DNA of 64,000 nucleotides from Alishewanella jeotgali KCTC 22429 (GTDB lineage: Bacteria; Pseudomonadota; Gammaproteobacteria; Enterobacterales; Alteromonadaceae): the NCBI RefSeq assembly GCF_000245735.1, contig NZ_AHTH01000045.1, positions 62,001 to 126,000 of the forward strand, written 5' to 3'. A program made the position numbers and the translations under genes. The notes below the pieces were generated by a model that saw only the letters and a program-made list of their open reading frames with translations, was not told where the DNA came from and did not search any database. This document shows, in pieces, positions 28,262 to 61,887 of this stretch; within the stretch, counting starts at the first letter, position 1; each line of letters begins with the position of its first letter.

Positions 28262-28323
28262 AACAGTAACCTCTTGTTATGGGGCCGTCCCCGAATGAAA
28301 GAATGCACTGGGGTCGTCCCCAG
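28258..28323 (-). promoter_or_regulatory. Guanidine-II (mini-ykkC) riboswitch with SD-sequestering hairpin
   Basis: On the minus strand two short hairpins with the diagnostic ACGR loops are present: CTGGGG-ACGA-CCCCAG (28323 to 28308) and GGGG-ACGG-CCCC (28292 to 28281), separated by 15 nt. This is the defining architecture of the guanidine-II class. Just downstream, CCAUAACA and UGUUAUGG form an 8-bp stem with the AGAGG Shine-Dalgarno in the loop and the start codon in the 3' arm. The first two bases of that stem are the last two of the second riboswitch hairpin, so the two structures compete. Expected effect (inference): guanidinium stabilises the ACGR hairpins, freeing translation of gdx. 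Confidence 0.93.
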
Positions 28324-60272: not shown

Positions 60273-60473
60273 ATGCTAATTCTGACGCGTCGAGTGGGTG
60301 AAACCCTGATGATCGGTGACGAAGTAACCGTTACTGTTCTGGGTGTAAAAGGTAATCAGGTACGGATTGGCGTTAATGCGCCGAAAGATATTTCAGTTCA
60401 CCGTGAAGAAATTTATATGCGGATCCAAGCTGAAAAAGATACCAATGGCGGTAATTTCAGCGAAGGTGAATAA
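60273..60473 (+). CDS. csrA: Carbon storage regulator CsrA
   Basis: This 66-residue dimeric RNA-binding protein controls translation and stability of many mRNAs. The sequence [16 protein letters not shown] and the RNA-contacting [14 protein letters not shown] are essentially identical to known CsrA. The Shine-Dalgarno is AAGGAG. Upstream, GCGCTGA / TCAGCGC (60194-60215) forms a hairpin between alaS and csrA, possibly an alaS terminator without a T-run. CsrA activity is probably set by the BarA pathway, whose kinase gene is also in this window. Confidence 0.98.
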
Positions 60474-60973: not shown

Positions 60974-61000
60974 GCGTTTAAACGACATGCTAAACCAGCG

Positions 61001-61050
61001 GGAGGTGAGAACCTCCGTTAGGTTCGACCAATTTGCCGGGAGCAAATTGG
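61001..61050. repeat. Two hairpin modules leading into the 72-bp repeats
   Basis: GGAGGT-GAGA-ACCTCC (61001-61016) and CCAATTTGC-CGGGA-GCAAATTGG (61028-61050) are perfect hairpins. The second matches, in inverted orientation, the AAATTTGC-TCCCG-GCAAATTT hairpin at 61458-61478. Confidence 0.75.
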
Positions 61051-61240
61051 GACAGCAACAGCTGGCCCGCAGGGCAGGCGGCAGGATAGCCGCCTGAAAC
61101 AAAATTGTCTGGAACAATTTTGGACAGCAATAGCTGGCCCGCAGGGCAGGCGGCAGGATAGCCGCCTGAAACAAAATTGTCTGGAACAATTTTGGACAGC
61201 AATAGCTGGCCCGCAGGGCAGGCGGCAGGATAGCCGCCTG
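61051..61240. repeat. 72-bp tandem repeat, 2.6 copies, each built of hairpins
   Basis: Units start at 61051, 61123 and 61195 (exact 72-bp period); the third stops at 61240. Units 1 and 2 differ by a single base near the start. Each unit contains GCCC-GCA-GGGC, CAGGCGGC-AGGATA-GCCGCCTG and AAAATTGT-CTGGA-ACAATTTT hairpins. The units are contiguous without unique spacers. Open frames on the minus strand here merely translate the repeat. Confidence 0.95.
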
Positions 61241-61245
61241 CAATC

Positions 61246-61302
61246 CCCGCGTCCGCCATATTCGTAAAGACCCGCTAAGGTGAAAACCTCAGCGGGTTTT
61301 TT
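61246..61302 (+). repeat. Duplicated tRNA-Arg 3' end and terminator (tRNA remnant)
   Basis: This second copy of 60918-60973 begins CCCGCGTCCGCCATATTCG and includes a full terminator (61271-61280 pairing with 61287-61296, then TTTTTT). The five bases before it (CAATC) still resemble the tRNA T-arm, but the rest of the tRNA is absent and replaced by the 72-bp repeat. Confidence 0.9.
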
Positions 61303-61350
61303 ATTTCCAACCAGATGATAAGCATTTGCAGCGTCTAGTTCAGAGCATCC

Positions 61351-61539
61351 GGCGGTAATCATTCCGTACAACTTTGACGGGACACGCTGTGAATACATCC
61401 CTGTACGGTTACAAACTTCATCCTGAAGTTTGCCCTGCGGGCCAGCTAAAGCTGTTCAAATTTGCTCCCGGCAAATTTCTGTCATTTTTCATCCCTGAAA
61501 AATACATTCCCTTACAAAGTGCACGGAATGCTTACCACC
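61351..61539. repeat. Palindromic element A with terminal inverted repeats and internal hairpins
   Basis: The ends, GGCGGTAATCATTCCGTACA on the left (61351-61376 in all) and its near-complement at 61515-61539, match at 22 of 26 positions as inverted repeats. The inside is a row of short hairpins: TACA-TCCC-TGTA (61394-61405), AAACTTCA-TCC-TGAAGTTT (61413-61431), GCCC-TGC-GGGC (61432-61442), CAGCT-AA-AGCTG (61443-61454), AAATTTGC-TCCCG-GCAAATTT (61458-61478), TTTTTCA-TCCC-TGAAAAA (61485-61502). No coding frame of note. The size and form resemble a MITE-like or REP-like element. Confidence 0.8.
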
Positions 61540-61621
61540 TCGTTCACTATCTTGCCACGAACAGTTTTTAGACGTTAGGTATGACATTCAGCGCGCATAG
61601 GTTGCGGTATTTGCCGAGCGA

Positions 61622-61740
61622 GGCGGTAAATGCATAGTACACTTTGGCCGGGGACGTCTTTCGCATGGATGCGAAAGGGGAGCCCCCAGGGATGGGTTCA
61701 CGGCGTGCCCCGGCAAAGTTGTACGGCGCATTTAGCCGCC
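61622..61740. repeat. Palindromic element B, related to element A
   Basis: The outer arms (61622-61653 and 61708-61740) are long imperfect inverted repeats. The right arm read in reverse complement (GTACAACTTTG...GGG.CACG) closely matches the left end of element A. Inside are CTTTCGCAT-GG-ATGCGAAAG (61658-61677) and CCCA-GGGA-TGGG (61685-61696). The remaining sequence up to pqiA (61741-61887) contains a possible -10 (TATAAA, 61853-61858) but no clear -35. Confidence 0.8.
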
Positions 61741-61887
61741 GTATGCTCGAATCCTTGATCTGCCAAACAGGAGCTTAATATTACTAAGGACGCTAAGATT
61801 AGCTTCAACACCACCACCTATTCCTCCCCCCTGCTGAAATATGCTATAAATGGCATACTTAGCGCGACTTTCTAGCCCGGAAACCCC

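Follow-up and report, generated by a model that had tools for sequence, protein, structure and literature searches.

Constant GGA loops on changing stems: a mobile YPAL-type repeat family with candidate CsrA-binding hairpins beside csrA of Alishewanella jeotgali

The DNA downstream of a tRNA cluster in Alishewanella jeotgali KCTC 22429 raises a simple question: why should a series of short hairpins keep one loop while their stems differ? We analyzed a stretch of 64,000 nucleotides (hereafter the window), in which the alanyl-tRNA synthetase gene (assigned by Pfam), csrA, one tRNA-Ser and two tRNA-Arg genes lie upstream of the hairpins and a PqiA-family gene (Pfam as well) lies downstream. Between the tRNA cluster and the PqiA-family gene, two separate features were found, at 60998-61302 and 61343-61748. 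The translation of csrA comprises Leu4 and Arg44, the CsrA residues named in the legend of Fig. 1 of PMC7652899. A comparison of the alanyl-tRNA synthetase region with six genomes places the host close to Rheinheimera: identity reaches 76% with L041 (Rheinheimera sp. EpRS3) and 75% with L067 (R. aquimaris), followed by 74% with two Arsukibacterium and, lowest, 67% with both a Shewanella and an Alteromonas. At gathering level, Rfam returned three tRNAs and a guanidine-II riboswitch (28280-28323, minus strand, 40.5 bits, above the gathering score of 32) and nothing else for the whole window, and zero matches for 18 loci. The features discussed first are:

60273..60473, plus strand: csrA, gene of the presumed partner protein, a neighbor outside the element (Pfam CsrA, 88.9 bits)
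61343..61748, no single strand: composite mobile element of two head-to-head units with imperfect terminal inverted repeats (sequence)
61343..61545, minus strand (GGA strand): left unit, outer stem over four GGA-loop hairpins (R1 covariance model)
61394-61405, minus strand: hairpin taCAGGGATGta, TA-CAGGGATG-TA, hairpin 2 of the left unit (absent from the minimum-energy fold)
61412-61432, minus strand: HC-type hairpin caaacttCAGGATGaagtttg, CAAACTT-CAGGATG-AAGTTTG (sequence, fold)
61458-61478, minus strand: HA-type hairpin of the left unit, AAATTTGC-CGGGA-GCAAATTT (sequence, fold)
61484-61503, minus strand: hairpin atttttCAGGGATGaaaaat, ATTTTT-CAGGGATG-AAAAAT (sequence, fold)
61600..61748, plus strand (GGA strand): right unit, outer stem and two ANGGAN hexaloop hairpins (R1 covariance model)
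61658-61677, plus strand: hairpin 1 of the right unit, ctttcgCATGGATGcgaaag, CTTTCG-CATGGATG-CGAAAG (sequence, fold)
61685-61696, plus strand: hairpin 2 of the right unit, ccCAGGGATGgg, CC-CAGGGATG-GG, inside the conserved GAGCC..TTCACGGCGTG junction

The five hairpins that a sequence-only reading of this region had named were all found in place. Its constant loop core also held, but had to be restated as CA(N)GGATG on the GGA strand, with the two halves of 61343-61748 lying on opposite strands. The stems, which had been taken as freely unrelated, instead belong to positional types; further copies of these types are present at other sites of the genome, and compensatory changes distinguish them. 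In 398 kb of sequence (the greater part of two contigs of this 3.83-Mb genome), CA(N)GGATG closed by a perfect stem of 4 bp or more was found 13 times vs 0.25 per dinucleotide shuffle, and 9 times vs 0.05 if the stem had 5 bp or more, while a backward-core control gave 0 hairpins in the same 398 kb. Thus the hairpins occur far above chance; nor do their stems fall into a few fixed sequences of a simple known REP family. The 9 long-stem matches occupy four sites, and since the matches cluster in elements, the counts are not independent events. Genome-wide, CANGGATG was found 332 times vs 112 for the backward pattern.

To what kind of element do these hairpins belong? A family query, built as a pattern from the right unit (CANGGATGNNTTCACGGCGTG), matches at least 118 stretches of GTDB genomes. 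Organism names were taken from 80 of them, a sample neither complete nor random, and the matches listed are mostly from Gammaproteobacteria such as Xanthomonas, Stenotrophomonas, Luteimonas, Microbulbifer, Marinobacter, Cellvibrio, Pseudomonas, Alteromonas, Shewanella, Rheinheimera and Sodalis, together with a few metagenome-assembled genomes or odd labels (Klebsiella, Bacillus; labels as given). The shared architecture reads outer arm, GAC-CGT, stem-CANGGATG-stem, GAGCC, NN-CANGGATG-NN, TTCACGGCGTGTC, outer arm. By script score, the outer stem is present in 105 of 124 sites from the matches listed, and its arms reach 30 bp (the script maximum), are almost perfectly paired and differ in sequence between copies. 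An alignment of 39 elements, which are those of equal length out of 43 (four were omitted), revealed standard pairs in 95.3% of 1209 pair cells vs 34-44% when the partner was slid, and changes on both sides of a pair in 367 cells vs 100.5 in shuffles and 58-96 when the partner was slid. Helices 1, 2 and 4 covary, of which helix 1 is favored because the 39 elements were picked for having an outer stem, while helix 3 (GCC/GGC) is nearly invariant and thus uninformative on covariation. The query itself fixed the loop of hairpin 2 and the TTCACGGCGTG stretch; helix 2 and loop 1 are free of this selection. The earlier suggestion of selection for structure around a constant loop is therefore backed by stem covariation.

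A covariance model built from these 39 elements of other genomes (R1) recovered the right unit of the window (61640-61721, 72.4 bits, E 3.4e-14) and the left unit (61369-61454, 25.7 bits, E 0.02). In the window's own genome it pointed to at least 22 further places at E <=1, with 150 of 599 candidates scored. Among 369 genomes sampled from the window's class, at least 75 match it, which is a lower bound since at most 12 candidates were scored per genome and stricter filters were applied. With the Sodalis copy as query, zero matches were found in E. coli genomes and phages, and 10 Pantoea plasmids matched at about 78% identity over 38% of the query. Two other element classes of this genome, B and C, share the CANGGATG loop and keep GGA; however, they add little support, since the CANGGATG core itself served to find them. 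At L016 (1-300) and L171 (about 1000-1330), a third kind of element was seen, whose very long palindrome carries just one CATGGATG hairpin.

The loop itself points to a possible partner. Hairpin 1, whose loop the query left unconstrained, reaches a stem length of 5 bp or more at 95 of the 124 sites from the matches listed. With one flanking base allowed, its loop comprises GGA in 91 of these 95 and TCC in 0, and in 75 of them an ANGGAN hexamer lies within 2 bases of loop 1, whereas control windows (n = 838) gave 112 hairpins with GGA in 8 and TCC in 8. In the 39 aligned elements, loop 1 always keeps its A and its GGA while both N positions and the closing pair vary. The target of RsmE is described as a hairpin with an ANGGAN hexanucleotide loop, of which A and GGA are contacted and N is variable, and the CsrB repeats as CAGGA(U/A/C)G (PMC7652899). 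Thus, where a loop-recognizing protein had been envisioned, the loop equals the published CsrA/RsmE hexaloop. A CsrA dimer bridges sites 10-63 nt apart, with an optimum >18 (PMC7652899), and within this range falls the GGA-to-GGA spacing, which is 22-24 nt in 91 of 104 elements measured among the matches listed and exactly 23 in 78. The accessory hairpins HA and HC, which were not chosen by their loop, keep GGA on the same strand although their stems differ. By sequence, the elements hence comprise what characterizes a CsrA-binding RNA, namely paired A-N-GGA-N loops closed by stems at bridging distance.

The distribution of csrA may fit as well. It is present (PF02599) in 312 of 369 genomes sampled in the same manner and, when lists were compared by eye, in 70 of the 75 element-bearing genomes. 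The element-bearing genomes found without it are G008, G069, G100, G196 and G343, four of which are <90% complete, and genomes of the family of G196 do have csrA. Elements occur in 70 of 312 csrA-positive vs 5 of 57 csrA-negative genomes (Fisher P 0.02; 0.006 at >=90% completeness), an association confounded by phylogeny and assembly gaps. Against a CsrA reading counts the length of the stems: hairpin-1 stems often comprise 7-11 bp among the matches listed, while SELEX ligands mostly have <=4 contiguous bp (PMC7652899).

Is the family mobile? The copy at C18:246631 of the window's own genome lies directly 3' of a stop codon. G369, G370 and G376 have an empty site at this spot, and in G397 another element occupies it in opposite orientation; thus the element is mobile. 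Since the arms are missing from the empty site, they travel with the element; on this evidence from one site we rejected the idea that stem arms are copied from the target. A possible duplication of AACCA(T), with about 12 bp lost alongside, was seen in this one case. At a second site, G369 carries a version with two hairpins, the own-genome copy adds a module with two more GGA hairpins, and the version of G397 displays compensatory stem changes. L172/L173 and L207 were considered as clean empty sites as well and rejected, because rearrangement or deletion seems to have altered them. Gains and losses affect both copies and hairpin modules.

At the csrA locus, the composite (inverted repeats 61364-61403 and 61687-61726, 88%) is present in the window species and in G370, and only its left half in G369. 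L146 and L152 carry a related unit that matches R1, whereas 25 of the 30 loci, short ones included, are without an R1 match. A single CsrB-like transcript over 61.0-61.75 kb was also envisioned and was dropped, because the halves of the composite lie on opposite strands. Elsewhere (L170-L173, the own-genome site C17:99540 and that of G370), pieces of the composite appear to be inverted relative to the flank in G370, which suggests flipping between inverted repeats.

Contrary to the earlier statement that no named family fits, relatives do exist. YPAL/RU-2 of Yersinia and Erwinia carotovora, an element of 168 bp whose sequence is printed in PMC2759123, shares the core stem-CAAGGATG-stem, GAGCC, TA-CATGGATG-TA, TTTACGGCG and outer stem. 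In the window, 61658-61705 comprises two CANGGATG hairpins with [G]AGCC between them and TT[TC]ACGGCG after the second, as in YPAL. Similarity does not extend to full length, since only a 27-nt piece aligns to the window unit (78%, E 0.26), while YPAL and the Sodalis copy L047 align over 118 nt at 86%. The window element differs from YPAL by its head-to-head composite, its extra GGA modules and its stems, and its family reaches much of the class whereas YPAL is known from a few enterobacteria. YPAL inserts just after stop codons. Empty and filled sites, duplications that span 3-26 bp of the target, and a location of targets at or beside dyad symmetry are reported for it, and it 'might influence' the stability of upstream transcripts (PMC2229807). 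In the top-ranked part of the broader literature, no published link between YPAL-type elements and CsrA was found.

The second relative is TwoAYGGAY RNA (RF01731; named in PMC2864571), in which an outer stem likewise carries a pair of neighboring hairpins whose loops are of the AYGGAY type. It belongs to Rfam clan CL00106 together with CsrB and rsmX, and CsrA binding has been proposed for it (PMC4333381). One class B element of the window's genome matches it below threshold (34.3 bits, gathering 43), while class A elements from 8 loci gave no TwoAYGGAY match at E up to 5. The sponge RNAs CsrB, RsmX, RsmY and RsmZ consist of repeated GGA-loop hairpins, as does the window array; class A differs from them as a dispersed mobile element whose outer stems lack a T-run. 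A separate CsrB candidate (L001, G000:C28:43590-43904, minus strand) with six CAGGATG sites scored 31.3 bits, below the cut-off of 71. Part of the Ysr224 consensus (RF02770) reads as the reverse complement of this element family. Ysr224 is modeled as a small RNA gene on the CAUCC strand, opposite to the GGA strand, which counts against a CsrA reading. Its best match (L040, 30.3 bits, E 0.0065) stays below the gathering score of 70, and sub-threshold matches opposite the GGA strand were seen at L040 3270-3371 (-), L059 4479-4586 (-), L023 1487-1597 (+) and L030 5210-5306 (+). Ysr224 is listed among the most widespread small RNAs (PMC9029176), and this wide spread may partly reflect the repeat described here. 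REP or GTAG-CGTC palindromes are dispersed as well (PMC3733652); however, they measure 20-40 bp, while the elements here are larger and multi-hairpin, with variable stems and a constant loop.

Which strand is under selection? In 93 distinct elements, the non-Watson-Crick cells of the GGA strand, scored without favoring wobble, are G-T in 111 and A-C in 16 cases (P 1e-18; outer stems 102 and 15, hairpin 1 9 and 1), with G-T pairs making up a low, uncalibrated share (3.6%). This excess argues that folding of the GGA strand is the conserved one, although mutational strand bias could be an alternative source. The excess and the armless empty site together also speak against the idea, advanced earlier for these hairpins, that the main cause is copying in which one arm serves as template for the other; hence the sequence-only reading is partly supported.

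Neighboring genes do not account for the signature. In outer stems, G-T and A-C cells stand at 46:8 if the upstream gene reads the GGA strand and at 30:6 if otherwise, and since wobble is alike whatever the neighbors, action on host mRNA does not explain the selection. A sense-strand bias, as expected for action in mRNA tails, was not found with either a rough or a better gene caller: between tandem gene pairs the GGA strand is sense in 19 elements and antisense in 31 (P 0.12), and the downstream gene is antisense to it in 58 of 83 cases (P 0.0004). That transcription does not favor the GGA strand counts against the CsrA reading. These gene-context counts come from 118 loci, of which 21 are edge-cut and 14 lie inside predicted ORFs, and rest on our own gene-calling script. 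Selection may thus act on RNA made from the element itself or on a single-stranded DNA intermediate.

If the latter, the GGA strand would be single-stranded DNA read by a mobilizing enzyme, with loops and junction as its signals, and CsrA would be irrelevant. The hairpins of attC and REP are recognized as single-stranded DNA by a mobilizing enzyme. Such a role would agree with the mobility seen at the site that is empty in three genomes and oppositely occupied in a fourth, with a strand signature independent of neighboring genes, with the duplications and dyad-symmetric targets of YPAL (PMC2229807), and with the junction GAC-CGT..GAGCC..TTCACGGCGTGTC, which CsrA alone would not need and which is strongly conserved, its TTCACGGCGTG part being fixed by the query. 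However, HA and HC lie outside this junction and yet their loops keep GGA, and the loop equals a known protein-RNA signal. Furthermore, we know of no partner enzyme for these elements, which also weighs against this explanation, and we consider it possible but on balance doubtful.

The genomic position might suggest another scenario. Elements lie near gene 3' ends: 27 of 83 are in convergent intergenic regions vs 22 of 177, and only 6 of 83 in divergent ones vs 56 of 177. They could thus be ordinary 3'-end repeats of the REP or terminator type that only stabilize or end mRNAs, with a loop that has no partner, and the influence on upstream transcripts considered for YPAL (PMC2229807) would fit. 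However, among elements from the matches listed, TTTTT follows the outer stem within 15 nt in 0 of 103, so the units do not look like terminators, and the loop appears to be conserved beyond the needs of stability, which makes this scenario improbable. Neutral upkeep, with template switching during replication keeping the arms perfect and the loop inherited from a founder copy, would account for long, almost perfectly paired arms of differing sequence, but is very unlikely, as it predicts equal numbers of G-T and A-C cells and leaves unexplained why A and GGA are fixed in 39 of 39 elements while the N positions and closing pair change.

The second feature of the locus lies next to the composite and comprises:

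60998..61258, plus strand: putative tRNA-Arg-like RNA with three tandem GGA-hairpin modules at the T-loop position (framing sequences, same-genus alignment)
61028..61050, plus strand: HA1 hairpin, CCAATTTGC-CGGGA-GCAAATTGG
61100-61122, plus strand: HA2 hairpin, CTGGA loop
61172-61194, plus strand: HA3 hairpin, CTGGA loop
61075..61096, plus strand: HC1 hairpin, CAGGCGGC-AGGATA-GCCGCCTG
61147-61168, plus strand: HC2 hairpin
61219-61240, plus strand: HC3 hairpin
61269..61302, plus strand: intrinsic-terminator-like hairpin and T-run that close the tRNA-like RNA (sequence, consensus fold)

The 72-bp unit reported earlier is indeed present here in three tandem copies (61027-61242) with its HC hairpin, and also carries another hairpin, the loop of which is CGGGA or CTGGA. 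The array is framed by GCGGGAGG..GGTTCGA on the 5' side and AATCC..CGCGTCCGCCA on the 3' side, and ARAGORN did not call the tRNA-Arg-like RNA as a tRNA. Each module runs from HA (C-N-GGA loop) through two further hairpins, CAGC..GCTG (short) and GCCCGNAGGGC, to HC (AGGAT loop). A query with the locus matched 31 of 31 same-genus genomes, 30 of which yielded a locus. The module is tripled in the window species, while 17 aligned single-module copies come from 15 of the 29 same-genus loci besides the window's own. Across the aligned copies of the genus, all four bases occur at the second loop position of HA beside a constant GGA, and compensatory stem changes were found for HA in L154 and L156 and for HC in L168. 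The gene is truncated in G370 and was not seen in L157-L164, L166 and L167. Of the Rfam models, rsmX matches the window array best, though at 25.4 bits (E 0.017) it falls short of its cut-off of 56, and the CsrB model reached 12.3 bits in the window region vs a gathering score of 71. The putative tRNA-Arg-like RNA is best read as a domesticated, module-bearing RNA gene beside csrA in the genus.

Predicted folds of the window copies give a mixed picture. Minimum-energy RNA folds of the three parts contain 18 hairpin loops, 9 with unpaired GGA, at z of -9.8, -4.7 and -6.3 (right unit -4.7, left unit -6.25). However, HA1 forms whereas HA2 and HA3 pair together instead of forming separate hairpins, the left unit lacks its hairpin 2, and 61685-61696 adopts a shifted register (stem GAGCCC/GGGTTC, loop CCAGGGAT) in which GGA is still unpaired. 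While the drawn register of this right-unit hairpin 2 has covariation support from other genomes (helix 4), these predicted departures count against a CsrA reading of the window copies.

Taken together, we favor, at somewhat better than even odds (about 0.55), a mobile YPAL-type family whose core consists of paired CsrA-type hexaloop hairpins and would bind CsrA in the manner of CsrB. Structure, loop constancy, strand and mobility are established by the data above, whereas CsrA binding, suggested by the loop and the 23-nt spacing, and a sponge role are what we infer. The GGA strand folds into an outer stem capped by at least two ANGGAN-loop hairpins, with accessory modules offering C-N-GGA or A-GGA loops. 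CsrA or RsmA of the host would read only the loop (A and GGA) and need merely some stem below, and it is for this reason, we propose, that the stem sequence could drift with compensation. Two loops, separated by about 23 nt, would be bridged by one CsrA dimer, and each transcribed copy might serve as a small CsrB-like decoy or hold CsrA at the tail of the mRNA in which it resides. In the genus, one module would have been built into a conserved putative RNA gene with a tRNA-Arg-like frame and its own terminator, and the tripled module of the window species would make this putative RNA a CsrA sponge.

One might speculate further, and only tentatively, that these class-wide mobile elements evolved to carry paired docking hairpins for CsrA for their own life cycle, via a GGA-strand RNA intermediate (possibly retro-mobile) and regardless of their neighbors, and were sometimes domesticated as CsrA sponges. 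Under this CsrA-docking reading, the tRNA-Arg-like gene beside csrA would be one domesticated case.

If CsrA is indeed the partner, many intergenic repeats of Gammaproteobacteria, such as those of Xanthomonas, Stenotrophomonas, Microbulbifer, Marinobacter and Rheinheimera, would be potential ligands of CsrA/RsmA. A function would then be suggested for YPAL and TwoAYGGAY-like elements, and the strand of Ysr224 would be worth rechecking. Models of CsrA titration would change, and mobile repeats would be tied to a global regulator.
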